Origin: Chelativorans sp. YIM 93263
GTDB taxonomy: Bacteria; Pseudomonadota; Alphaproteobacteria; Rhizobiales; Rhizobiaceae
Length of the DNA stretch: 64,000 bases
Assembly: GCF_028767125.1 (NCBI RefSeq)
Contig: NZ_JAKCWP010000005.1
Coordinates: 186,001-250,000, forward strand
Reading direction: 5' to 3'
In this document: one piece after another, positions 10,437 through 21,921 of the stretch
Numbering within the stretch: the stretch's first letter is position 1
How the letters are laid out: each line of letters opens with the position of its first letter
The notes under the pieces: generated by a model
Database searches by the model: none
What the model was told of the DNA's origin: nothing
What the model saw: the letters and a program-made list of their open reading frames with translations, nothing else
Made by a program: the position numbers and the translations under genes

Positions 10437-10454
10437 GGCAAGCGAACGCTTGCC
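10437..10454 (+). terminator. Hairpin after acyP
   Basis: Perfect 8-base inverted repeat GGCAAGCG / CGCTTGCC with a 2-base centre, starting one base after the acyP stop. No T-run follows, so it may slow or protect transcript ends rather than act as a full intrinsic terminator before the next gene, 86 bases on. Confidence 0.4.
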
Positions 10455-10539
10455 GCCGGCGCAATGTCGTGAAATACCGGCGGAAAGTTTCGTCTCTGGC
10501 CACCAGATGACCAGATATCTGCGCGAAGTGGAGAATTGC

Positions 10540-11439
10540 ATGCCCGAACCGATGAAAGGGGCGTTGGCCCCCGTGATCACGCCACTGACTGCGGACTACC
10601 GGCCGGACGCCGACCGTCTTGTCGAGCATTGCCGCTGGCTGATCGAACGCGACTGCGGTCTGGCCGTATTCGGTACGAACAGCGAGGGCAACTCGCTGGC
10701 CCTCGGTGACAAGATGGAGTTGCTTGATCACCTCGTGGAAAGCGGCCTTCCCGCGGAACGGATGATGCCGGGCACGGGTCAATGCGCGCTTCACGATACG
10801 GTAAAACTCAGCCGCCGGGCGGTCGAGTTGGGCTGCGGGGGCGTGCTCATGCTGCCGCCATTCTACTACAAGGGCGTGAGCGACGAGGGCCTGTTTCGCT
10901 ATTTTAGCGAGGTGATCGAGGGTGTGGGCGATGATCGCCTGCGCGTTTATCTTTACCACATCCCACCCGTGTCACAGGTGGGCTTCAGCCTCGACCTGAT
11001 TGATCGTTTGATAAATGCTTATCCGGATATCGTCGCCGGCATCAAGGACAGCTCCGGCGATTGGGAAAACACCCGCGCCATGCTCGAGCGCTTTCCCGGC
11101 TGGGGTGTCTTCTGCGGAAACGAGCTGCGCCTGCTGGACGCTCTAAAGCTCGGCGGCGCGGGCGTGATTTCCGCCACCTGCAATATCAATCCGGGGCCGA
11201 TCGCCGCCCTTTACCGCAATTGGCGGGACGAGGACGCTGCAGCCCGCCAGGAAAAGCTGAATGAGTTCCGCAGCCTCGTCCAAAGCTATCCTTTGATCCA
11301 GGCGCTGAAAGCGATCACAGCGCATTCGCGCAACGAGCCCGCATGGGAACGCGTCATGCCGCCGCTGGTGGAACTTGATGCAGAGCAGCGTGCCGCGCTC
11401 ATAGAGCAGTGTGCCGAAACCGGGTTCAGTATGGAATAG
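10540..11439 (+). CDS. DapA-family (class I aldolase-like) lyase, not a true DHDPS
   Basis: 299-residue TIM-barrel protein of the N-acetylneuraminate lyase/dihydrodipicolinate synthase superfamily. The Schiff-base lysine is near residue 169 (AGIKDSSGD), the catalytic Tyr near 139 (YLYHIPP) and the carboxylate-binding loop reads FGTNSEGNS. After the Tyr, true DapA has an Arg (VPxRT) that binds aspartate semialdehyde; here the sequence is IPPVSQVG with no Arg. The substrate is therefore probably another 2-oxo acid/aldehyde pair. The ATG at 10540 follows GGAG; ATG 10507 is the alternative. It converges on and overlaps the end of the glycosyltransferase gene by 14 bases. Confidence 0.85.
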   Translation: MPEPMKGALAPVITPLTADYRPDADRLVEHCRWLIERDCGLAVFGTNSEGNSLALGDKMELLDHLVESGLPAERMMPGTGQCALHDTVKLSRRAVELGCGGVLMLPPFYYKGVSDEGLFRYFSEVIEGVGDDRLRVYLYHIPPVSQVGFSLDLIDRLINAYPDIVAGIKDSSGDWENTRAMLERFPGWGVFCGNELRLLDALKLGGAGVISATCNINPGPIAALYRNWRDEDAAARQEKLNEFRSLVQSYPLIQALKAITAHSRNEPAWERVMPPLVELDAEQRAALIEQCAETGFSME

Positions 11440-12490
11440 CGGTCATTTTTGCCGGCGCTGCGCGGGCATCGGCGATCCTGTGATAGAGTTCGAGATAATT
11501 CTGCTCCATCCGATCCGGCGAGAAGCGGTCCGCGGCCGCAGAACGGCAGACCTCCGGATCGATGTCCGAACATGCTGAAATGGCATCCGCCATTTCATGC
11601 ACGTCGTTCACGATAAAGCCCGTGCGGCCATGCTCGACCACTTCGGGCAAGGCTCCGTTGGGGAAGGCAACGACGGGCGTACCGCAGGCAAGCGCCTCTA
11701 TCGCCGTCAATGAACAGGTCTCGGCGACGAGGCTGGGGATCAGCACACATCGGGCCGAGGCCAGGAGCTGGCGCTTCTGGTCGAATCCGAGCGGGCCGAG
11801 AAAGCGGCGGCGCTCGTCGAGCAGCGGAGCGACCTCCTCCCGGAAATAGCGCTGATGGGCCTCATATGGGAAAACCTGGCCGCCAATAACGAGCGGCTGG
11901 TCGATCCGGCGACATGCCTGCAGTGCAAGATGTATGCCCTTTTCAGGGCAAATTCGGCTTAACGCGATGGCATGATCGCTTTTGCCCTCGTTGGTTTCGA
12001 AAAGCTCCCGCGGCACCCCGTTTTCGATCGGAGGGAGCAGAGCGGCCCCTTCAGGCGCGGTGTGATGCTGCGCTTCGGAAACGCAATGCAGCCATAGATT
12101 GGGATAACCCCGATATATCCACTCCGGATACCAGTCGAGGGGAAGATGCAGTGTGGCGAGTGTCGGCGCATCTTCGGGTACGTAGGCCGGGAAATCGATG
12201 CCGTGCAAATGCACCAGATCCACGCGGTGCTTCGCCAGCACCGAGGCAATCAACTCACGCATTTCCGCCCAAACGACGTCGCGGAGCGGATCATCGATCG
12301 GCCCGTCTTGAACGCGAAGCGGGATCAATTCACCGGCAACGCTGGAGCCCTCACACGCGATGACGAGCGAGCGGTGGCCGTGCCGCACCAGGATCTGATC
12401 GAGCGCTGAGAGTACCTGCTCGGCGCCGCCCACGGCATCGCGTCCAACCGCCGCGAACGGATAGGCGACACTCAGAACCGTCAAAGCCAT
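11426..12490 (-). CDS. GT4-type glycosyltransferase
   Basis: GT-B fold glycosyltransferase of 354 residues from the ATG at 12490. The N-terminal acceptor domain has AAVGRDAVGGAEQVLSAL, the usual GGAE loop. The C-terminal nucleotide-sugar domain has ALSRICPEKGIHLAL and the EX7E-type motif ETCSLTAIEALACGTPVVAF. This is the family that includes MshA and PIG-A, which act on inositol (phosphate) acceptors; given ino1 in the same operon, that is a suggestive comparison but not proof. It overlaps the deacetylase gene by 10 bases and is the last gene of the operon. Confidence 0.9.
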   Translation of the reverse strand: MALTVLSVAYPFAAVGRDAVGGAEQVLSALDQILVRHGHRSLVIACEGSSVAGELIPLRVQDGPIDDPLRDVVWAEMRELIASVLAKHRVDLVHLHGIDFPAYVPEDAPTLATLHLPLDWYPEWIYRGYPNLWLHCVSEAQHHTAPEGAALLPPIENGVPRELFETNEGKSDHAIALSRICPEKGIHLALQACRRIDQPLVIGGQVFPYEAHQRYFREEVAPLLDERRRFLGPLGFDQKRQLLASARCVLIPSLVAETCSLTAIEALACGTPVVAFPNGALPEVVEHGRTGFIVNDVHEMADAISACSDIDPEVCRSAAADRFSPDRMEQNYLELYHRIADARAAPAKMTAIPY

Positions 12491-13344
12491 AGCGGAAGGT
12501 CCAGATCGCGGCAGGCGTTCGACACCAGCTGAGGCCACTCCTCTGGGCGAAGCCCCCAATCGAAATTCCTGTAGAAGAGGCCGCCGCGGTTGGGGAGTTC
12601 ACCGAAATCGTATTGTGCGGCCGGCTGAAACCGCTCGACCTGCTGCCCGAAGGCAGAGAGCATACGCCGCTGCGTAAGATATGCTGTCATTAGGCGCTGC
12701 TTCGCCTCGGCTATAGCTCCGTCGAGGGAAACGGTTCGAGCGCTTTCTCGCTCGCTTCCGGGAGCGAACTGCTGAACGACCATGCAGCCATTCTCGGCAT
12801 GATAAAGCGGGAACTCGACGATTTCGGGCGCTCTGAAACCGTTCCGCGTGAGCGAGTGACAGGCGGCGTGCACCACCAGTGCCGTCGCATCATGATCCGG
12901 ATGGCCACCTTCGTAAGCATGGGTCAGGACGAGGCGAATACGTTCCTCTCGGAAGAGCTCCGCCACCTGCAACACCACTTCGGCCATGTGGTGCGCCACC
13001 GCCTGGTCGGGAACGCTCAAGGACAACAGCGCACCCGGATCGACGCCGGCGAACGCCATGGCCGCCGCCAGTTCCTTCCGCCGCGCGTCGGCATAATCCT
13101 CGCGGCAGGCGAACCCGCAGGCGAGCGCTTCGCCCATATTCATCGGCGCACCGTCCGTCACATGGAGCAGGCGCACGCCCTCCATCCGCTCCAGTTGGCC
13201 ACCGAGCGCGATGGTTTCATCGTCGGGGTGGGCGACGACGATCAAAACGTCCCGACAGTCGATTGTCGGCCTCTCAGGCGCCCCCAACCGTTCGACCAGC
13301 CATTCCGCCGAAGAGGATGCGGCAGGTTTGGCTAGCCCCAACAT
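12481..13344 (-). CDS. PIG-L/LmbE-family deacetylase
   Basis: Zinc-dependent N-deacetylase family of GlcNAc-PI deacetylase and MshB. The 287-residue protein has the zinc/catalytic motif AHPDDE at residues 38-43 and the second motif HPDHDA near 148-153. It probably removes an acetyl group from an N-acetylhexosamine made by a neighbouring glycosyltransferase. It starts 3 bases after the glycosidase-like gene ends and overlaps the GT4 gene by 10 bases, so deacetylation and glycosyl transfer are likely coupled. About 25 residues precede the usual domain start. Confidence 0.92.
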   Translation of the reverse strand: MLGLAKPAASSSAEWLVERLGAPERPTIDCRDVLIVVAHPDDETIALGGQLERMEGVRLLHVTDGAPMNMGEALACGFACREDYADARRKELAAAMAFAGVDPGALLSLSVPDQAVAHHMAEVVLQVAELFREERIRLVLTHAYEGGHPDHDATALVVHAACHSLTRNGFRAPEIVEFPLYHAENGCMVVQQFAPGSERESARTVSLDGAIAEAKQRLMTAYLTQRRMLSAFGQQVERFQPAAQYDFGELPNRGGLFYRNFDWGLRPEEWPQLVSNACRDLDLPLWL

Positions 13345-13347
13345 CGC

Positions 13348-14265
13348 TCACGCTGCACCCTGTATCCGGCGCGCGCTTCGTCCAGCATAGCGTTCCGTCA
13401 TGGCTGCGCAGAAATCTGCGAATTCCGTCGGGTCCTGCGGCGCGCTGGTATGGTGCGGGACAATTCCGCGGTGCTCCGGCGTGAAGCAAAATGTCAGCGT
13501 CACATCGAAGTCGGAAAGCGTTTCCATTTGCCGGTCGAACCAATCGAGCGCATTGGGCCGGAAGCTGTCCGCCCAGGAAAGGCCGGTGCGCAAATGCGTC
13601 ACCCCAAGCCGCTTCATCCAGCGCACCGCGTCGTCCAGCCGCGGATCCTCGAAATGAAACCACTGGCACAACCCGAGTTCGGGCGTGTACTCGCCGAATT
13701 TTTCAAACGAGGGTTTGGGCGTTCCATCCTCGCGGATGAGCCCCATATAGAAATGCCGATAATAGGAAGAGCCCTCGGCTTCTTTGTGGCGGGTCGTCGC
13801 TCCCCATTCCTGGGGCAGATCGAAGAGGCTGTACCACTGGATGCGCGGTGCGCGGCCGGTGAGCAGCTCAGCCGTACGCTCCAGCCCCCATAGCTGCACT
13901 TCTTCCGCGCCGAACGTGGAGACACCCACCTCACTCACCCAGACCGGCAAATCCGTCAGCGCCTGGATCTCCGCGAGCTTATTCGGCCATTCATCGATCT
14001 GCCACAGGTTCCAGTCCAGGGGGAATCCGTGAACGGCGATGGCGTCCACATGGTCCAGCACCGATTTACTCTGCATGTTCTGAATGAACAGCGGGTCGAT
14101 GGGCGAGATACCGCCTAGCACGCGGGTGACATCCGAATTGACGCTGCCGATAGCATCGGCAGCTCCGATGGCCATATCGGCGAACACCGTCCAGTCCGGA
14201 TCGATTTCCGGATCCCAGTGAGACTTATTGTTCGGCTCGTTCCAGATCATTGCGGCTTCGATCAT
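13348..14265 (-). CDS. Clan GH-A glycosidase-like protein with apparently permuted barrel
   Basis: 305 residues. It opens directly with the acid/base motif IWNEPNN (residues 7-13), which normally sits at the end of barrel strand 4. Then come AVHGFPLDW, the candidate nucleophile Glu in WVSEVGVST, and WYSLFDLP, which read as strands 5-8. The C-terminal third (LGLCQWFHFEDPRL, THLRTGLSWAD, TLTFCFTPEHRG) reads like strands 1-3 of the same fold. The order thus looks circularly permuted. It may trim or bind a sugar made by this operon; beta-xylosidase is a common label for relatives, but the substrate is unproven. No signal peptide, so cytoplasmic. Confidence 0.8.
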   Translation of the reverse strand: MIEAAMIWNEPNNKSHWDPEIDPDWTVFADMAIGAADAIGSVNSDVTRVLGGISPIDPLFIQNMQSKSVLDHVDAIAVHGFPLDWNLWQIDEWPNKLAEIQALTDLPVWVSEVGVSTFGAEEVQLWGLERTAELLTGRAPRIQWYSLFDLPQEWGATTRHKEAEGSSYYRHFYMGLIREDGTPKPSFEKFGEYTPELGLCQWFHFEDPRLDDAVRWMKRLGVTHLRTGLSWADSFRPNALDWFDRQMETLSDFDVTLTFCFTPEHRGIVPHHTSAPQDPTEFADFCAAMTERYAGRSARRIQGAA

Positions 14266-14286
14266 GGATCAGGTCCCTCGTTCGAC

Positions 14287-15111
14287 TTACTTTAAAGAAA
14301 CGGAAATCTCACGGCGCGGGGCGAGTGGCCGCCGCCCCGCTGGCGCGCCAGCCGTGACATGCACACCCGCGATGCGGGCATTCTCGTTTGCTGCCTCACG
14401 CAGCAGCTCGTTTGCGGATCGATACCCTTCGAGCGTTCCGACATCGACATAGGCGAGACCTGCCTTGACCCCGACCGCGCTGCCGCCTCTCGCCAGATAC
14501 GCGTTGACCAGAGTGCCCATGTATTCATCGGTGCGGCCCCGCTCGATCCAAAGCGCCTGGAGCGCGTGCAGTATTCTGCCCGGCATTTTGAACCCGCCCC
14601 AAACCCAATTTGTCGACGGGAACTCCTGCTTCACCTGTATCTCTTGGACATGACCGGCCTCATCCGTCACGACGGCATCAAAGGCTGATGGCCTCTCAAC
14701 CGGGAAAAGCAGGAAGGAAAGCGTATCGTCGGGCAGGGAACTGTAGCCATCCGCCGGCATCCAGATCGTGTCCGGCAAGCCGACGAGCACGTGCTCATCC
14801 GGGGTTATCAGAGAAGCCACGCGAAAGATCGCGTCGCAAAGCCCCCTGGGTTCAGGCTGAACCACATAGGCGATCGGCGCGCCCGCGTATTCTGCCCCGT
14901 AATACTCCATGATATCGGACTTGCCCGGTGCGATCACGAAGCAGAGCTTGTTTGCGCCGCCATCGACCATGCGTTCGCAAAGATATTCGCTGACCGCGCA
15001 AGGCCGCTCTGCCCCGTCGCTCAAGCGGCTGCCCACGGGCAGAAGCTCCTTGGAGAAAGCCAGCGGCTGGATTCGGCTTCCAGAACCGGCTGCCGGTATA
15101 ATGCCCCACAT
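14287..15111 (-). CDS. Sugar-1-phosphate nucleotidyltransferase
   Basis: 274-residue NTP transferase of the glucose-1-phosphate thymidylyl/uridylyltransferase type. The N-terminal nucleotide-binding loop reads IIPAAGSGSRIQPLAFSKELLPV (residues 4-26, with the G-x-G-x-R and the Lys of PxKxLLP-like sequence). The metal-binding Asp is in VLVGLPDTIW near 109-118, and there is GLAYVDVGTLEGY near the C-terminus. It should make the activated sugar donor for the two glycosyltransferases of the operon. Sugar and nucleotide cannot be told from the sequence. It sits 21 bases before the glycosidase-like gene. Confidence 0.88.
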   Translation of the reverse strand: MWGIIPAAGSGSRIQPLAFSKELLPVGSRLSDGAERPCAVSEYLCERMVDGGANKLCFVIAPGKSDIMEYYGAEYAGAPIAYVVQPEPRGLCDAIFRVASLITPDEHVLVGLPDTIWMPADGYSSLPDDTLSFLLFPVERPSAFDAVVTDEAGHVQEIQVKQEFPSTNWVWGGFKMPGRILHALQALWIERGRTDEYMGTLVNAYLARGGSAVGVKAGLAYVDVGTLEGYRSANELLREAANENARIAGVHVTAGAPAGRRPLAPRREISVSLK

Positions 15112-15122
15112 GCCAACCTCCT

Positions 15123-16220
15123 CTACGCGCGCATTGCTGCCGGACCGACAGCATGTGTGTGAAGTTCGCTCAGCAGAGTTTCGAACTCAGCCGCGCGGTG
15201 ATCGGAGGTGTGGGCGGAAAGCACACGCTCTCGGGCCGCCTCTCCGATGCGGGCCAATTCAGCATCGTCGCGATCCAATGCCGCGGTGGCGTCTTCCGAG
15301 GATCCCGCCAACAGGATCTGGCGGTCCGGCTCGAAGAATGCATCCAGCCCTTCCCACCAATCCGAAAGAATGGGAATGCCGCATGCGGCCGCCTCGAACA
15401 ATCGGCCCGACGGGCACCACCCCATCTCCGCCATGGCACGGCGGGTGACGTTGAGTGTCAAACGGGAGGAGGAATAGAAGGCCGGATGTTCAGAAGGCGG
15501 CAAATGCCTGACGAAATAGATATTGTCCCGCCACGGAAAATCCGGCGGATACTGAGCGCCGGCTATCACGAAGCGCTGGTTTGGCCGCTGGCGCGCAGGC
15601 TCAACCAGGAACTCGGTAACACTGCCCTGCCGGTCTTCGGCATAGGTTCCGATATAGGAAAGATCGCACTCGTACTGAGGTTTGGGGGCCGTCGGCCGGT
15701 GGACCGCTGGATCCACATGGCCGTAAAGGGGTGCGACGCATTTTGCGCCGAGCCTTTCACGAAGGGCCTGAAGCGCCTGCCCGCCCGTATAGCTGAACAC
15801 CAGATCGAAATCCCGCAATCCGCGTGAACCGATATAGCTGGTCTTTTCTCCGCGCTCGATGCGCGACAGCGTCACCGGCGTATCGAGATCGTAAAAAACA
15901 CGGGTGGCGTGCCCGGTGGAAAGAACCAACTCGGCGGCCGGAATGCCATCGGGGCAATAGGAGGAGACAAGGGCCACATCCGCGTCGGCCAAGTGGTTGC
16001 TGGCTGCGGAAAGAACATCGTTCCAGTCGCTATAGAGGACAAGCTCACCGTCCTCGATCTCCTGAAGATCACGAGCACCCGCATAGTAAGGTAGGTCGCG
16101 CTCGAAGAACACGACACGCCATCCGCGCCGCGCCAGCGCACGCACGAGTCCGCGCCAGAGGGTGGCATGGCCGTTTCCCCATGAGGAACTGATCGTCAGG
16201 CCGAAAATGACGAGCTTCAT
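15123..16220 (-). CDS. CgeB-like glycosyltransferase
   Basis: 365-residue GT-B protein resembling the CgeB/DUF3880 group. The N-terminal half has FGLTISSSWGNGHATLWRGL. The C-terminal half has the donor-site pattern CPSGRLFEAAACGIPILSDWW near 275-295 and a following DRQILLAGSSEDA. A second glycosyltransferase beside the GT4 enzyme implies that at least two sugars are added to the product. It overlaps the phosphatase gene by four bases. Confidence 0.85.
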   Translation of the reverse strand: MKLVIFGLTISSSWGNGHATLWRGLVRALARRGWRVVFFERDLPYYAGARDLQEIEDGELVLYSDWNDVLSAASNHLADADVALVSSYCPDGIPAAELVLSTGHATRVFYDLDTPVTLSRIERGEKTSYIGSRGLRDFDLVFSYTGGQALQALRERLGAKCVAPLYGHVDPAVHRPTAPKPQYECDLSYIGTYAEDRQGSVTEFLVEPARQRPNQRFVIAGAQYPPDFPWRDNIYFVRHLPPSEHPAFYSSSRLTLNVTRRAMAEMGWCPSGRLFEAAACGIPILSDWWEGLDAFFEPDRQILLAGSSEDATAALDRDDAELARIGEAARERVLSAHTSDHRAAEFETLLSELHTHAVGPAAMRA

Positions 16221-16849
16221 GCCGATACTCCCGTCTTGACCGGGACTTGCTCTGAAGAAAAGACCTGGTTGGAAGAAAGCAGCTTGCCGCCTTGCGCGCC
16301 GACCGCGATCGTGGTCAGGGATGCGGGGCGGATTTCAATCGTGTGAACTTCCTGAAACGATGCCCCGAGATAATGGCATATGCCGGCCTTGATGACGTCG
16401 GCATGGGAGACCAAGGCGATGCTCCCGCCGTGAAATTCCCGACGGATCCGTTCGATGAATCCGACAAGGCGCGCCGCGACATCACGCATCGTCTCCCCCG
16501 CCGGCGTCGCCGCGAAATCCCGCTGCTCGTTCCATTCTCGCCACAACGGATCCGATGCAAGATCGTCAAACGTCCTCCCGCACCAGCGCCCGAAATCGAT
16601 CTCGTCGAGCTCATCGGCGATCGTGCTTTCTGTGCCCGTTTCTGCCGAGATGATTTGGGCTGTCTGATAAGCGCGGAGCTGCGGACTGGTGTAAAGCGCA
16701 TCGAGATTCGCATCGGCCAGATGCCGCCCAACGGCCCGCGCCTCCTCCTGGCCCGCCGGCGTAAGCGGCGCGCCGGGGTTACGTCCGGTCAGGATACTGC
16801 CGAAATCACCATGCGAGCCATGCCGCAGAAGGTGGATCACAGTACTCAC
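16217..16849 (-). CDS. Histidine phosphatase-superfamily protein
   Basis: Branch-1 histidine phosphatase of 210 residues from the GTG at 16849, which overlaps the ino1 stop as GTGA. A longer frame to 17008 would run into ino1. The phospho-accepting His10 is in LLRHGSHGD. Other conserved points are Arg in [11 protein letters not shown], Glu in LDEIDFGRW, and the second His in LVSHADVIK. Four-base coupling to inositol phosphate synthase suggests that it removes phosphate from inositol phosphate or from a glycosylated inositol phosphate. This is inference from position. Confidence 0.88.
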
Positions 16850-17946
16850 TGCAGGCCAACCGCGATCTCGTCGTCGCCGGAAATGAACTGAAGCACCCGC
16901 TGCCGTGCTTCCGAATCCGTAAACTGCTCGGGAGGGGACTTCATGAAGTAACTGGACGGACCGACCAGCGCTCCGCCCTCGCCGCGATCCATCGCCAGCT
17001 TGGCGCACCGGACCGCGTCGATGACAACGCCGGCGCTATTGGGTGAGTCCCAGACCTCGAGCTTCAATTCGGCATTGACCGGAACACCGCCGAACGTGGT
17101 TCCTTCCATACGGATATAGGCCCACTTGCGATCGGTCAGCCATGGCACATAGTCGCTCGGCCCGACGTGAATATTGCCGGCCTCCATGGGAACGCCGAGC
17201 TGGCTTGTGACGGCCTGGGTCTTGGAGACCTTTTTCGATTCCAGCCTCTCGCGCTCCAGCATATTCTCGAAATCGGTGTTGCCGCCGAAATTCAGCTGAT
17301 AGGTGCGATCCAGCCTGATGCCGCGCTCGCGGAATAGGTTCGTCAGAACCCTGTGAACGATCGTAGCGCCGAGTTGGCTCTTGATATCGTCGCCGATGAT
17401 CGGAAGGTTGCGGTCCTCGAATTTCTTGCGCCACTCGGGGCGTGACGCAATGAACACCGGCATGCAATTGACGAATGCGCATCCGGCCTTCAGCGCCTCG
17501 CCGGCATACCACAACGCGGCCTTTTCCGAACCGACCGGCAAATACGAGACGAGAACATCCGTCTCCGTCCGGTCAAGCACATCCGCGACATCGACCACCG
17601 GCTCTTCGGATTCCTCGATCTCTTCGCGCAGATAGCTGCCGATTCCGTCAAGAGTCGGCCCTCGTTGAACGGGTACGCCCGTTGGTTCCACCTCTGCGAA
17701 GCGGAAAGTGTTGTTTGGAGGAGCAAAGACCGCCTCGGCGACATCGCGCCCGACCTTGGATGCGTTCACATCGAAAGCCGAGCTTATGGTGACGTCGTCA
17801 ATCGCGTACCCACCGATCTCGGCGTTCATAATGCCTGGGATCGGGTTGTTGGACTTAACACCGCGATAGTAGTTCAGCCCCTGGACGAAGGAGGACGCGC
17901 AATTGCCAACTCCGACAATACCTACACGAACAGTATCATTATGCAT
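16846..17946 (-). CDS. ino1: myo-Inositol-1-phosphate synthase (prokaryotic type)
   Basis: NAD-dependent isomerase converting glucose-6-phosphate to inositol-3(1)-phosphate. 366 residues from the ATG at 17946. The Rossmann loop is [19 protein letters not shown] near 6-24. The catalytic region contains [17 protein letters not shown], then [12 protein letters not shown] and SKTQAV, as in the short archaeal/actinobacterial enzymes. It is rarely expected in rhizobia outside dedicated inositol-lipid or inositol-glycan pathways. It is followed by an overlapping phosphatase gene. Upstream are 161 bases without a gene, so a promoter internal to the operon is possible. Confidence 0.93.
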
Positions 17947-18107
17947 ATTTCGTCTCCGCTTTGCGGAAGCGCAGTTGTCGCCATTTGCCGGCCAATGTCC
18001 CTGACAGCCGGACTTCCAGCTCTCGTTCAAACCCTAGCTGGCTGATTTTGTTCCAGAGTTGCTGTTCACCGATGGAACGGGCGACTCGGGGCGGAGTAGA
18101 TAATGAG

Positions 18108-18581
18108 CTACAAACCGTTGAGTTCCTTGGTCATGACGCGGCGACCGTGTTCATCCCAGCCGATCGGTCGCCAACCGCGATTCCGGTAAAAGGAGGACGC
18201 TCGGTCATTATCCGCGTCCACCTTGAGCTGGGCACTGTGGAAGCCGCGGTGCCGGGCAACGCGCTCCGCCGCATGCATCATCTGCCGCCCGATACCAGCC
18301 CCTTGGAGAGGAAAGAACGTTCGGATTGCCCACAACACCGCCACTTGCTCGGCACGCTTCCGAGCAAAATCGATCCATACCTGTGCGATGGGGAAATCGG
18401 CCGAAACAGCGAGAAGCATGAGCGCTTCGCCGCGTTGCTGCATCTCGAACGTCTCACGAATGATATGGCGGTCAGGTCTATAAAGGCCCATCCACTCCAG
18501 CGCGGGAAGGTCCTCCTTTTGGCATGGCCGAATCTTTGCCCGGATCGTCGCCTCTATTCTGCCGAGTTCCGGTCCATGCAT
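18108..18581 (-). CDS. GNAT-family N-acetyltransferase
   Basis: 157-residue GNAT protein. The acetyl-CoA loop is recognisable as PLQGAGIGRQMMHAAE near 93-107, followed by LKVDADNDRASSFYRNRGW, the typical final strand and helix. It lies between the CelD-like gene and ino1 on the operon strand, 177 bases after the former. In a mycothiol-like scheme it would be the MshD-type acetyltransferase, but sequence alone does not give the acceptor. Start assigned at ATG 18581; an in-frame stop lies about 70 bases upstream. Confidence 0.82.
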   Translation of the reverse strand: MHGPELGRIEATIRAKIRPCQKEDLPALEWMGLYRPDRHIIRETFEMQQRGEALMLLAVSADFPIAQVWIDFARKRAEQVAVLWAIRTFFPLQGAGIGRQMMHAAERVARHRGFHSAQLKVDADNDRASSFYRNRGWRPIGWDEHGRRVMTKELNGL

Positions 18582-18758
18582 GATGCCGCTTTCACGCAGT
18601 CGAGCCCGACCCGCCGATGAAGGAATGGCCTGAGTGTAGCCCGATACTCAGCGGTGCGTTCGCTCGCGGGGCGCCCGTAGTGGGACCAGGGGATATAGCG
18701 GGCTCGAAGCCGCGAGACGAGAGATCCCCGATTGTCCACCGAATCCCGATCCCGGCCA

Positions 18759-19694
18759 TCACGCAACCCTTTGCATGGAAGGAGCTAGTTTGCGGGCGAA
18801 TGTCGACTCGTCGACAGCACCCCAGCGGTATTTGTAAGACTCGTGCCCACGCAGGAAATCGAAGCTCTCTAGACCAGCGCGTTCGCAGTCTTCGATCGCG
18901 TGGCTGACAAGCACCGTCCCGAGCCCCAGCTTTGCGTACTCCGGATCGAAACCGCCAATATAATAATAGGCCTTGCGCTTGGCGGCCATGACAAAAAGAG
19001 CTGCGATGGGACGACCGGCCATTCGCGACACAAAAAGGCGCAAGATTCCTACGCGCTCCAGAGAAATGGCGGCACTCTGCTGCCAGGAACGGAAGCGCTC
19101 ATCCGCGAAGACTCCGCTCTCTCCGCGGTCGTTCCAGCGGCGAGTGTGCAACTCGGCAAGCTGGCCCACCATCTCGGCACCAGCCTGCTCCGGTTCGCTC
19201 ACCCCGGCACGGATTGCGCGCCTCCGGTAGTAGCGGACATTCTGGTTCATCTTGGCACTTGGCCGCGCCGGCAAAGGAAGAACGGCGCAGTTTTCCGAAT
19301 AACCGGACCGCTCCTGCCATCCATCCGGTGCAGAAGCCTGCCGAAGCGGGGAGTCTGCCGGAAGCTGAAAGAGATCGAGCGGTTCGCCAAGCCCATTCAC
19401 GGCCCATTGAACCGCTTTTCGATCCAGAGCCGGATCGAACAAGCCATCGAGCCGGTCGGAAGGACCAGCCCCCCAAAGAAGCAGGCGGCCATCCAGACGA
19501 TAGAAGGGAAGGAGCCCGACGAGCCGCTCCCCGTGCCAGAACGCGAGAACGACGCTCTCTCCATCATCGTAATGCCGCCGCCAGGGAAGAAGCCAGGCCG
19601 GACTTTGGAAAGGCGTGGCACATGGGTCCCGTCGCCAGAGGTCCCACCATGCTTCTTCCAGGCTGTCGGCTTGTTGCAGAAGCTCTATCCGCAT
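18759..19694 (-). CDS. CelD/BcsL-type acyltransferase (GNAT fold)
   Basis: 311-residue protein with the double-GNAT layout of the CelD/FemAB-like group. The N-terminal part has CATPFQSPAWLLPWRRHY near 27-44 and FWHGERLVGLLPFY. The C-terminal GNAT part has YYYIGGFDPEYAKLGLGTVLVSHAIEDC. The last residues, FDFLRGHESYKYRWGA, are a family hallmark. Members act in polysaccharide or glycolipid acylation. The start is uncertain: ATG 19694 is preferred, GTG 19748 has no ribosome site. It lies downstream of the methyltransferase gene and probably modifies the product of this operon. Confidence 0.83.
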   Translation of the reverse strand: MRIELLQQADSLEEAWWDLWRRDPCATPFQSPAWLLPWRRHYDDGESVVLAFWHGERLVGLLPFYRLDGRLLLWGAGPSDRLDGLFDPALDRKAVQWAVNGLGEPLDLFQLPADSPLRQASAPDGWQERSGYSENCAVLPLPARPSAKMNQNVRYYRRRAIRAGVSEPEQAGAEMVGQLAELHTRRWNDRGESGVFADERFRSWQQSAAISLERVGILRLFVSRMAGRPIAALFVMAAKRKAYYYIGGFDPEYAKLGLGTVLVSHAIEDCERAGLESFDFLRGHESYKYRWGAVDESTFARKLAPSMQRVA

Positions 19695-19784
19695 TGCCTG
19701 GACGGTGTCCCTGCTAATCTTGTTCGCAAGAGCCCTCACAACCGTCACAGTGGCAAATTGTTCGCCGTGAGGCGCTGGGAAAAG

Positions 19785-20552
19785 CTATCGACGCTCAGGC
19801 CCGGCTATCAATGGCGGAGGATCCGAAAACGCCGGCCGTTCGCCCTTCCGGCAAAGATAAACTTCCAGTTCCGGATGCGCCTCGATTTCGAAACCGCTGC
19901 TGCGCAGCATGGCCTCGACTGCACCCCTGTTCGGGAAGAACCAGTTCGTCGGGTCCCTGGAATAGCTGTGTTCGATAAAATGCAGCTTGGGAAAATCAGG
20001 GTCGTCGAAAATCTCGGTTTCCGAAAACGGATGCTCGTGCGCCACGTCCGCCGGTTGGTCGGATCCACGCTGAAGGCACTGAAACAAAAGCTGGTCGCGG
20101 GCGGCGTGCTCATAGATCAGGTCCAACGCCAGCAGGGGATGGCGAAGATGATAAAGCACGCCCATAAAGAGGACGAGATCGAACGCCTCGCCAAGCTGAC
20201 CCACATCGTACACCGACATCTGGTGCAGCTCCAACGGAGTGCCGGCCTGCTCTGCCGCGAACGACGCCTGGCGGAGATAGTGAGGATCCGTATCGATCCC
20301 GACCACACGGCCGGCGTTCCGCCGCTTCATCTCTATGGCATAAAAGCCGGCATTGCAGCCGATATCGAGGACCGAGCGCCCCTCGAGATCGTCGGGGACG
20401 ACACTTGAGAAATGCTCCCACTTACAGGCGGGATAATCACCCAGGAAGTGATCCGGGGCGGTTTGCACACCACCAATTCTCATATTCTGAAACCAGGGGC
20501 CTAGCTCGGCAATGCGCTTGGCAATGTCATCCGACTGAAGATTAGTATCCAT
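19785..20552 (-). CDS. SAM-dependent methyltransferase (TIGR04290/CmoB-like family)
   Basis: 255 residues from the ATG at 20552. The SAM-binding motif I is VLDIGCNAGFYAIEM near 58-72, motif post-I VGIDTDPHYLRQA near 79-91, and there is FDLVLFMGVLYHLRHPLLALD near 123-143. The N-terminal GPWFQNMRIGGVQTAPDH matches the group annotated TIGR04290 (relatives of tRNA methyltransferase CmoB), which as I recall is often found next to glycosyltransferase clusters. It is first of the ten-gene operon. The substrate, perhaps a sugar or a lipid head group, is not known. Confidence 0.87.
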   Translation of the reverse strand: MDTNLQSDDIAKRIAELGPWFQNMRIGGVQTAPDHFLGDYPACKWEHFSSVVPDDLEGRSVLDIGCNAGFYAIEMKRRNAGRVVGIDTDPHYLRQASFAAEQAGTPLELHQMSVYDVGQLGEAFDLVLFMGVLYHLRHPLLALDLIYEHAARDQLLFQCLQRGSDQPADVAHEHPFSETEIFDDPDFPKLHFIEHSYSRDPTNWFFPNRGAVEAMLRSSGFEIEAHPELEVYLCRKGERPAFSDPPPLIAGPERR

Positions 20553-20802: not shown

Positions 20803-21921
20803 ATGACCAACACACCACCCTACCGCGCCGACCATGTCGGCTCCCTTCTGCGTCCCGTTGCGGTCAAGGAAGCGCGCAAGAAGTTCTACGAGGACAAATC
20901 GATCTCGGCTGAGGAACTCAGGAACGTTGAGGACGCCGCCGTCACCGATATCGTAAAGATGCAGCAGAATATCGGGCTCAACGTCGTTACCGATGGTGAA
21001 CTGCGCCGCTCGTTCTGGCACTTCGACTTTATGGGTGGCCTTACCGGCCTCGAACTGGAGGAGCGCGAGGGACAAACGGGCCTGCAGTTCCAGGGCGCGA
21101 ACGTGCGTCCGGTTTTTCCCACGATCAAGGAAAAGCTCGATTTCCCGGACAACCACCCGATGCTGGACCACTTCAAGTATGTCGCATCGGTGACCAAGGT
21201 CACGCCGAAAATATCGATTCCCGGCCCGAGTGCCTGCCATTTCCGCGTTGCAAAGGAAGACATTCACCCGAAGGAATATAAGGATCCGGAAGCGCTCTTC
21301 GCCGCCATCAGCCGAACCTACGCCAAGGCGGTCGAGAAGTTTTACGAGGCGGGTTGCCGCTATCTGCAGATGGACGACATCTTCTTCGCCTATCTCTGTG
21401 ATCCGAAAATCCGCGAGCAGAAGAAGGCGGCCGGCGAAGATCCCGACTGGCTGATCGACCAGTATGCAAAGATGATGCACGATGCGATCAAGGACCGGCC
21501 GGAGGACATGCTGATTGGCATGCATATGTGCCGCGGCAACTTCAAATCCACGTGGGTAGCCGAGGGTGCCTACGATCCGGCGGCGGACGCCGTGTTCAAC
21601 AAAACGGGCGTCGATATCTACTTCATGGAGTACGACACCAACCGCGCCGGAGGGTTGGAACCGCTCCGCCTCCTGCCGAAGGGCAAGAAGCGCGTGCTGC
21701 CGGGTTTCATTACCACCAAGGTTCCCGCACTTGAGCCCTTGGACGACCTGAAGCGCAAATTTGACCTCGCCGGCAAATATGCCGATCTGGATCAACTCGG
21801 GATCGCGCCGCAATGCGGCTTTGCCTCCACCGAAGAAGGCAATGACATCACCGAAGATGACCAGAAACGGAAGCTCGAGCTCGTGGTGAAAACAGCCGAA
21901 GCGATCTGGGGCGAAGTGTAA
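20803..21921 (+). CDS. MetE-like (cobalamin-independent methionine synthase C-terminal domain) methyltransferase
   Basis: 372 residues, equal to only the catalytic C-terminal half of MetE. The zinc-site residues are visible: His241 and Cys243 in MHMCRGN, Glu276 in MEYDTN and Cys338 in PQCGF. The N-terminal folate-binding half of MetE is absent. Such short enzymes may take methyl groups from substrates other than methyl-THF-polyglutamate, or need a partner. AGGAAACC precedes the ATG. It is transcribed away from the glycan operon, with 250 bases between in which I found no recognisable riboswitch. Confidence 0.85.
   Translation: MTNTPPYRADHVGSLLRPVAVKEARKKFYEDKSISAEELRNVEDAAVTDIVKMQQNIGLNVVTDGELRRSFWHFDFMGGLTGLELEEREGQTGLQFQGANVRPVFPTIKEKLDFPDNHPMLDHFKYVASVTKVTPKISIPGPSACHFRVAKEDIHPKEYKDPEALFAAISRTYAKAVEKFYEAGCRYLQMDDIFFAYLCDPKIREQKKAAGEDPDWLIDQYAKMMHDAIKDRPEDMLIGMHMCRGNFKSTWVAEGAYDPAADAVFNKTGVDIYFMEYDTNRAGGLEPLRLLPKGKKRVLPGFITTKVPALEPLDDLKRKFDLAGKYADLDQLGIAPQCGFASTEEGNDITEDDQKRKLELVVKTAEAIWGEV

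Follow-up and report, generated by a model that had tools for sequence, protein, structure and literature searches.

An operon that joins Ino1 to a predicted circularly permuted clan GH-A barrel and probably builds a sugar-decorated inositol compound

We find that ten adjacent minus-strand genes in the window (the whole 64,000-nucleotide stretch of DNA analysed here) probably build a sugar-decorated inositol compound, and that one of the core genes encodes a GH-A protein with a rearranged chain order that is common to many soil and plant bacteria. The reading we favour, at a probability of roughly one half (0.5), is that the genes form a biosynthetic operon acting in the cytosol and leading to a glycosylated, methylated inositol, either a glycoside or a short oligosaccharide, with the permuted barrel as a core partner. 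The gene content, the recurrent core, the circular permutation and the tie to inositol-3-phosphate synthase (Ino1) are read directly from the sequence. Carriers of the system among relatives include members of Sinorhizobium, Mesorhizobium, Bradyrhizobium, Methylobacterium and Roseomonas. Several of these lend themselves to genetic work, and the operon suggests that an inositol metabolite has gone unrecognised in bacteria of this kind.

Layout and content of the operon

Open reading frames of the window, combined with family profile searches, place the run at 11426-20552, and all ten genes that the first-pass annotation had put on one strand are found there, on the minus strand. Its description of their ends as mostly overlapping is a little strong: three of the nine junctions overlap (by 4, 4 and 10 nt), and the remaining six are gapped, four by 3-36 nt and two by 161 and 177 nt. 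The run is bounded, because both flanking open reading frames (10450-11439 and 20803-21921) lie on the plus strand. From high to low coordinates, the genes are:

19785..20552, minus: TIGR04290 family methyltransferase (CmoB-like class I), NCBIfam TIGR04290 at 375.4 bits, above the cut-off of 300; core gene
18759..19748, minus: CelD/BcsL-like (Acetyltransf_6) acyltransferase, PF13480 at 108.3 bits; accessory
18108..18581, minus: GNAT acyltransferase, PF00583 at 41.5 bits; rare among related loci
16846..17946, minus: Ino1, inositol-3-phosphate synthase, TIGR03450 at 523.3 bits, below the equivalog cut-off of 638; core gene
16217..16849, minus: histidine phosphatase, PF00300 at 159.1 bits, with RHG and SHAD motifs, its gene overlapping the end of the Ino1 gene by 4 nt; core gene
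15123..16220, minus: CgeB-like glycosyltransferase, PF13524 at 141.3 bits
14287..15111, minus: sugar-1-phosphate nucleotidyltransferase (RmlA/AglF-like), PF00483 at 45.0 bits, AglF at 66.2 bits against a cut-off of 400, 1lvw at 40.5 bits
13348..14265, minus: predicted circularly permuted clan GH-A (beta/alpha)8 glycosidase-like protein, from swapped-order alignments, a profile test, a structure model and the catalytic dyad; core gene
12481..13344, minus: PIG-L family deacetylase, PF02585 at 74.5 bits, with AHPDDE and HPDH motifs; accessory
11426..12490, minus: GT4 glycosyltransferase, PF13692 at 83.8 bits, overlapping the PIG-L gene by 10 nt; accessory

None of the ten proteins has a strongly hydrophobic segment, the highest 19-residue Kyte-Doolittle mean being 1.52.

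A rearranged GH-A barrel

Judged from sequence comparison and a predicted structure, the GH-A-like protein folds as a clan GH-A barrel that has undergone natural circular permutation; the label it had first been given was right as far as it went and missed the permutation. In clan GH-A barrels the strands follow one another from 1 to 8, an order from which this protein departs: aligned with canonical-order relatives, its chain reads as strands 4-8 and then 1-3 in all 81 related loci. The rotated profile scores 292.2 over 279 columns against 208.6 over 176 columns for the native one, and the AF2 model is an eight-stranded (beta/alpha)8 barrel (pLDDT 83.4, pTM 0.86). Among solved structures PslG (PDB 4zn2, 5bx9), a clan GH-A glycosidase that we take to belong to GH39, comes closest, with an overall profile match of E 8.5e-7 in which the two halves are swapped: profile positions 3-188 align with chain positions 132-323 (21.9 bits), and positions 200-294 with 25-129 (8.4 bits, not significant alone). 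Seven canonical-order relatives share 29-36% identity with the rotated protein in one continuous alignment, and have in common with it the motifs WNEPN and W(V/I)(S/T)E.G; they differ in their canonical strand order and in belonging to a separate glycosyltransferase module.

In clan GH-A enzymes the two catalytic glutamates sit where strands 4 and 7 end. Here the corresponding residues are Glu10 (WNEPN) and Glu112 (WVSEVG), both invariant in 42 of 42 members; in the model E10 comes after the strand at 4-7 and E112 sits close to where the strand at 108-113 ends, and the acid/base (WNEPN) and nucleophile motifs of PslG align with them. Mean column identity over the 42 sequences is 82%. Recognition by Pfam is nevertheless weak: a first Pfam/NCBIfam search at E 0.01 gave no match for the window protein, Glyco_hydro_cc matches 39 of the 42 members with a best E of 4e-5 (the window member reaching 15 bits against a cut-off of 21), and Glyco_hydro_39 matches three (best E 0.022), the permutation being a hindrance to profile matching. 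Such weak recognition could speak for a protein that has lost catalysis and is kept for binding, as a scaffold or sugar binder, but we consider this very unlikely given the invariance of both glutamates in motifs common to the seven canonical-order relatives. Most likely, as far as motifs and model can tell, the permuted barrel with its two retained glutamates would act as a retaining glycosidase or transglycosidase on an inositol glycoside; a dead or purely hydrolytic protein is possible.

The canonical-order domain either neighbours a GalE/RmlB-like epimerase or is joined to one, in a linked glycosyltransferase module (loci L117-L121, L123, L125 and L128), and is fused in both relatives checked with Pfam. 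The linked modules hold GalE/RmlB-like epimerases and several glycosyltransferases, and among loci longer than 20 kb some include a polysaccharide pyruvyl transferase (12/71) or FrhB/FdhB (12/71). PslG, the solved protein nearest to the permuted one, is for its part associated with Psl. Both points could be taken to mean that the run decorates, or supplies precursors for, a surface polysaccharide (EPS, LPS or capsule), with the GH-A protein as an editing glycosidase. We think this unlikely: no flippase, polymerase, ABC exporter or priming glycosyltransferase is seen among the annotated recurring neighbour families (42 families occur in at least five loci, about half of them annotated and four with representatives that have no Pfam match), and the permuted protein, unlike PslG, has no N-terminal hydrophobic segment in a Kyte-Doolittle scan. 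Its place in an Ino1 operon is a further difference from PslG.

Recurrence of the core and its tie to Ino1

The related loci comprise S. meliloti and the best 80 of 528 relatives, 71 of the 81 spanning more than 20 kb; the sample leans toward close relatives of the query GH-A-like protein, and antisense open reading frames among the neighbour clusters were left out of consideration. Within the 71 longer loci, the GH-A-like protein is present by construction (71/71, having been the query), and the histidine phosphatase (70/71), Ino1 (68/71) and the TIGR04290 methyltransferase (60/71) accompany it. CgeB-type glycosyltransferases occur in 58, a count that takes in paralogues of the linked glycosyltransferase module, and the nucleotidyltransferase in 41. 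The accessory genes are scarcer: GT4 and the CelD-like acyltransferase are each found in 22 (one GT4 at 30% identity only), PIG-L in 14 and GNAT in one, and a near relative, L037, has no PIG-L, GT4, CelD or GNAT within its 20 kb locus. The ten families had been expected to co-occur across genomes, and they do not travel as one unit; what recurs is a core made up of Ino1, the phosphatase, the TIGR04290 methyltransferase and the permuted GH-A protein.

Across 397 genomes of the order, TIGR04290 is found above cut-off in 37, and every one of the 36 that have a GH-A-like match is among them (Fisher p about 2e-50, a guide only, because the genomes are related by descent). The methyltransferase is not seen in 12 of the 81 loci; in six of these, from Ensifer/Sinorhizobium, it may lie past the 10-kb flank, because the S. 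meliloti copy is about 14 kb away. Gene distances correlate across 64 loci with r of 0.69-0.81, values that none of 500 permutations reached in any case, and the correlation may reflect common descent only, housekeeping genes standing outside the comparison.

The tie to Ino1 is close. The permuted protein occurs in 31 of the 397 genomes, and in all 31 its contig also bears an Ino1 with at least 67% identity, the low coordinates of the two genes being separated by no more than 8,087 bp (median 4,175). Where Ino1 is absent from the locus stretch (6/81), it is found elsewhere in the genome at 67-75% identity in five cases; L050, with no Ino1 match in locus or genome, is the only such case of the 81. 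In Methylobacterium loci L112 and L115 the permuted gene stands next to PIG-L, apart from Ino1, and no Ino1 match at E up to 1e-40 was obtained in the five genomes with the canonical-order protein alone (G064, G129, G295, G358 and G361). The converse is looser: 42 of the 73 Ino1 genomes of the order have no permuted protein, and in two of these (G227 and G263) Ino1 stands at 67% identity, equal to the weakest genomes with the permuted protein. In the window's own genome a single PF01658 match was found, so that the operon's Ino1 is the only copy found.

Candidate pathway and product

The first-pass annotation organised the run around mycothiol/GPI logic, which is partly right at most. On this route, GT4 would place GlcNAc on inositol-3-phosphate, and the phosphatase, PIG-L and an acyltransferase would follow, yielding a glucosaminyl-inositol. 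The PIG-L motifs are intact, GT4 and CelD accompany PIG-L in 11 and 12 of its 14 loci, and the solved inositol-3-phosphate synthase closest to Ino1 is 1gr0 (474.9 bits over residues 5-357), which we take to be the mycobacterial enzyme. However, the mycothiol models are missed by wide margins: GT4 scores 45.7 bits against 462.5 for MshA (TIGR03449), over a C-terminal stretch only, PIG-L 22.9 against 224.35 for MshB (TIGR03445) and GNAT 15.4 against 163.1 for MshD (TIGR03448), and Ino1, a clear homologue, stays below its mycothiol equivalog cut-off. No MshC (TIGR03447) match in the genome exceeds the cut-off, the best having 233.4 bits against 485.1; this is probably a cysteinyl-tRNA synthetase, because the model gives matches in all 14 control genomes and above cut-off in one. 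The bacillithiol models fare no better (BshA 51.7 against 273.7, BshB2 45.8 against 195.25 and BshB1 38.2 against 182.5 bits). Among solved structures GT4 is nearest to 7fg9 (122.8 bits) and to UDP-glucose:tetrahydrobiopterin glucosyltransferases, and its match to the D-inositol-3-phosphate glycosyltransferase 7qsg is confined to residues 155-306 of 354 (37.6 bits). With PIG-L and GNAT also so sparsely distributed, we regard this route as an improbable account of the system, and it may be a side branch in this species.

The other part of the earlier proposal, an inositol-containing glycoconjugate, holds up better: Ino1, glycosyltransferases, a nucleotidyltransferase and tailoring enzymes are grouped in one run and a core of them recurs, which makes an inositol-containing glycoside a reasonable inference. 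In the operon we favour, Ino1, whose reaction is assigned from strong homology, would cyclise glucose-6-phosphate to inositol-3-phosphate; the other reactions, the cellular location and the product are proposed from family or context. The phosphatase would take the phosphate off inositol-3-phosphate or a later glycosylated intermediate, the nucleotidyltransferase is the probable maker of the sugar donor that it would supply, and the CgeB-like glycosyltransferase, in this species GT4 too, would attach the sugar. The TIGR04290 enzyme would provide the methylation step, and in lineages that have them PIG-L with CelD/GNAT may deacetylate and then re-acylate an amino sugar.

The window methyltransferase also links the run to a gene set with TIGR04295 (B12_rSAM_oligo), which curators presumably treat together with TIGR04290 as parts of an uncharacterised glycan cassette. 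TIGR04295-like proteins occur in 17 of the 81 loci (the reference one at 718 bits), with no match in the window's own genome at E up to 0.001. Literature searches under TIGR04290, TIGR04295 and related names, and under the system name 'rhizo-twelve', found no paper on the system; position-guessed S. meliloti locus tags gave nothing on it either, SMb20231 being described in the accessible part of PMC12542648 as an ABC sugar-binding protein. Nothing relevant was among the matches listed for inositol-3-phosphate synthase in Sinorhizobium, or in Methylobacterium with stress. Bradyrhizose, an inositol-fused sugar, was set aside as the product because the system also occurs in S. meliloti; in the accessible part of PMC4743980 its genes are given as unknown at the time, an eleven-gene cluster with a dTDP-glucose 4,6-dehydratase is named, and no mention of inositol-phosphate synthase was seen.

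A rather doubtful extension is that the permuted protein has given up hydrolysis for transglycosylation and, working in the cytosol, links inositol to its sugar by a glycosidic bond, making a widespread alphaproteobacterial inositol metabolite in an independent parallel to the GH13-to-GH70 permutation. GH70 glucansucrases are a natural circular permutation of the GH13-type (beta/alpha)8 barrel, in a family that includes glucanotransferases and other transglycosylating enzymes (PMC5216370, accessible part), and are the one natural glycosidase permutation of this fold checked in print; no circularly permuted clan GH-A glycoside hydrolase was among the literature matches listed. They differ from the window protein in being clan GH-H alpha-glucan enzymes with extra domains and no inositol link. 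Strongly conserved and accompanied by Ino1 in every order-sample genome that has it, the permuted GH-A protein has a canonical-order relative in a separate module, and with such a pair the effect of the permutation on function can be tested.

Composition of the cassette

We find that every gene kind named in the first-pass annotation is present, as ten ORFs on the minus strand bordered by ORFs on the opposite strand. Their ends had been described as mostly overlapping, which holds at three of nine junctions; at four others the genes are separated by 3-36 nt, and at the last two by 161-177 nt.

11426-20552, minus strand: ten-gene run
13348-14265, minus strand: GH-A-like gene within the run, encoding the permuted protein
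10450-11439, plus strand: convergent ORF, judged by eye to look like a DapA-type lyase; the 3' end of the GT4 glycosyltransferase gene overlaps it by 14 nt (11426-11439)

The source genome (27 contigs, 4.25 Mb) has a single copy of Ino1, the inositol-3-phosphate synthase. It is homologous to the solved synthase 1gr0 (474.9 bits), presumably the mycobacterial enzyme, and scores under the TIGR03450 equivalog cut-off. The mycothiol logic proposed for the run is not supported by its other members: the window proteins fall far short of the MshA, MshB and MshD models, and no MshC above cut-off is found in the source genome. Against the BshA and BshB models of bacillithiol synthesis, too, the window proteins score far below the cut-offs.

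To define the neighbourhood of the permuted protein, we scanned named genomes and obtained at least 528 relatives at E <=0.001, perhaps not all permuted. The best 80 loci were kept. Adding the locus of S. meliloti 1021, where the core is carried on pSymB, brings the set to 81; 71 of these are longer than 20 kb.

Table. Genes in the 71 loci longer than 20 kb (tblastn, E <=1e-8, >=35% of query covered)
Phosphatase (histidine phosphatase): 70
Ino1: 68
Methyltransferase (TIGR04290): 60
CgeB-type glycosyltransferase: 58
Nucleotidyltransferase: 41
GT4: 22 (one at 30% identity)
CelD acyltransferase: 22
Second methyltransferase: 19
PIG-L: 14
GNAT acyltransferase: 1
GalE/RmlB-like SDR: 59
Second GT4: 50
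TIGR04295-like radical SAM: 13
GFO/IDH/MocA oxidoreductase: 31
Zinc dehydrogenase: 30
PS pyruvyl transferase: 12
FrhB/FdhB: 12

From these counts the cassette therefore divides into four parts: a core (Ino1, phosphatase, methyltransferase and permuted GH-A protein), a donor pair (CgeB-like glycosyltransferase and nucleotidyltransferase), an accessory set (PIG-L, GT4, CelD and second methyltransferase) and a linked glycosyltransferase module. The nucleotidyltransferase is present in 22/22 GT4 loci and 22/22 CelD loci, and FrhB is in none of either. The idea that all ten genes travel as one unit does not survive the low counts for GNAT, PIG-L, GT4 and CelD. Even at L037, whose GH-A protein is 87% identical to that of the window, the methyltransferase, Ino1, phosphatase, CgeB-like glycosyltransferase and nucleotidyltransferase are present, and PIG-L, GT4, CelD and GNAT are absent from the 20 kb examined. 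Of these parts, the window contains the core, the donor pair and most accessory genes. Neither a TIGR04295 match nor a further GH-A-like match occurs in the source genome.

The order of the parts also varies. At eight loci from Roseomonas and allied genera (L055, L070, L071, L085, L094, L095, L101, L110), Ino1 and the phosphatase are inverted and lie across an SDR-GT4-CgeB run from the methyltransferase and permuted GH-A genes.

The cassette is already catalogued in part, since two genes of the wider system carry NCBIfam names (TIGR04290 and TIGR04295). For the permuted protein, Pfam returns weak fragments of GH-A-type families, and the two members scanned have no NCBIfam match. With the search terms used, and largely outside subscription journals, we found no literature on this gene system, nor any description of a clan GH-A enzyme that is circularly permuted.

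The permuted barrel

The window protein begins M-I-E-A-A-M-I-W-N-E-P-N. Counting the window gene, the sample of 397 genomes from the same order holds 31 full-length relatives, of which 30 were retrieved (L005-L034). All 30 have ATG at the aligned first residue, and in seven (L005, L007, L014, L015, L020, L021, L023) a stop codon in the same frame, no more than five codons upstream, makes a longer N-terminus impossible; in the other 23 the frame stays open further upstream.

Two swapped blocks relative to canonical relatives are seen in 81/81 permuted loci. The profile comparison scores 208.6 (176 columns) in native order and 292.2 (279 columns) after rotation, and BLASTP aligns the rotated window protein in a single unbroken stretch, at 29-36% identity, to each of seven relatives. 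Against PslG, a solved canonical-order glycosidase, the family profile likewise matches in swapped order, with the moved half alone scoring a non-significant 8.4 bits. An AF2 model built with 42 family members (pLDDT 83.4, pTM 0.86) has eight strands, starting at 4, 47, 75, 108, 142, 197, 224 and 254.

The swapped-order matches in the order sample are longer frames of 600-1005 aa, which by sequence are canonical-order GH-A domains (L117-L121, L123, L125, L128). In both Pfam-scanned cases, L117 and L121, the domain is fused N-terminally to a GalE/RmlB-like epimerase; the other canonical-order loci have an epimerase match directly behind the domain by tblastn, except L125, where the contig ends at that point. 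Because PslG and these epimerase-linked relatives are both canonical in order, we infer that the permuted form is the derived state. Most of these loci carry GT4 and three CgeB-type glycosyltransferases around the domain, and the L117 module includes a TIGR04295-like radical SAM gene.

Co-occurrence across genomes

We searched the 397 genomes for the GH-A-like protein, the TIGR04290 methyltransferase and Ino1. A GH-A-like match at E <=0.001 occurs in 36 genomes, all of them among the 37 with TIGR04290 above cut-off. The one remaining genome, G004, has the methyltransferase, phosphatase and Ino1 on one 8-kb contig that ends ~130 bp past the methyltransferase, so the GH-A gene may be simply absent from the assembly.

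All 31 genomes with a full-length permuted-order protein have Ino1 at >=67% identity on the same contig (low coordinates <=8,087 bp apart). Ino1 relatives at E <=1e-40 occur in 73 genomes, 42 of them without the permuted protein: G004 (72% identity), 12 from one family at 63-67% (G019, G065, G101, G132, G160, G184, G207, G227, G246, G263, G279, G294) and 29 at 46-59%. Thus, in this order sample, the presence of the permuted protein implies that of Ino1, and the reverse does not hold. The 32 top-scoring Ino1 genomes are exactly these 31 plus G004, with no score gap thereafter, as G227 and G263, which rank directly below, are likewise at 67%. In a phylum sample of 398 genomes, which contains many close kin, 12 have the permuted protein at E <=1e-30, and two of the 12 belong to other orders.

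Among the 81 loci, Ino1 is unseen in the examined stretch of six (L050, L090, L111, L112, L115, L116); five of these genomes have it at 67-75% identity elsewhere or on a different contig. In Devosia submarina (L050), Ino1 was not found in the genome, nor in the locus by direct tblastn at E <=0.001, and the phosphatase, methyltransferase and permuted GH-A genes are kept together. In Methylobacterium (L112, L115) the permuted gene adjoins PIG-L, apart from Ino1. The TIGR04290-type methyltransferase is unseen in 12 of the 81, six of them Ensifer or Sinorhizobium; in S. meliloti it lies ~14 kb distant.

Predicted activity and product

Glu10 and Glu112 are invariant in 42/42 aligned sequences and, by alignment to PslG, fall at what we take to be the acid/base and nucleophile sites of clan GH-A enzymes. 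The permuted barrel would then be a retaining glycosidase or transglycosidase acting on an inositol glycoside. The pathway is probably cytosolic, because strongly hydrophobic stretches are absent from all ten proteins (highest 19-residue mean, 1.52). Given this, and given that no exporter or polymerase appears among the annotated recurring neighbour families (about half of 42), we favour as product an inositol glycoside that would be soluble or exported later. The precedent of GH70, a permuted barrel relative to GH13 in a family that includes glucanotransferases (PMC5216370), makes transglycosylation no more than a candidate activity.

A zinc dehydrogenase (L085, 10961-11941) and a GFO/IDH/MocA oxidoreductase (L050, 13386-14405) both recur near the core. 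Their top models are scyllo-inosose 3-dehydrogenase and inositol 2-dehydrogenase, with scores far below cut-offs; where present, these enzymes may oxidise or epimerise the inositol ring.
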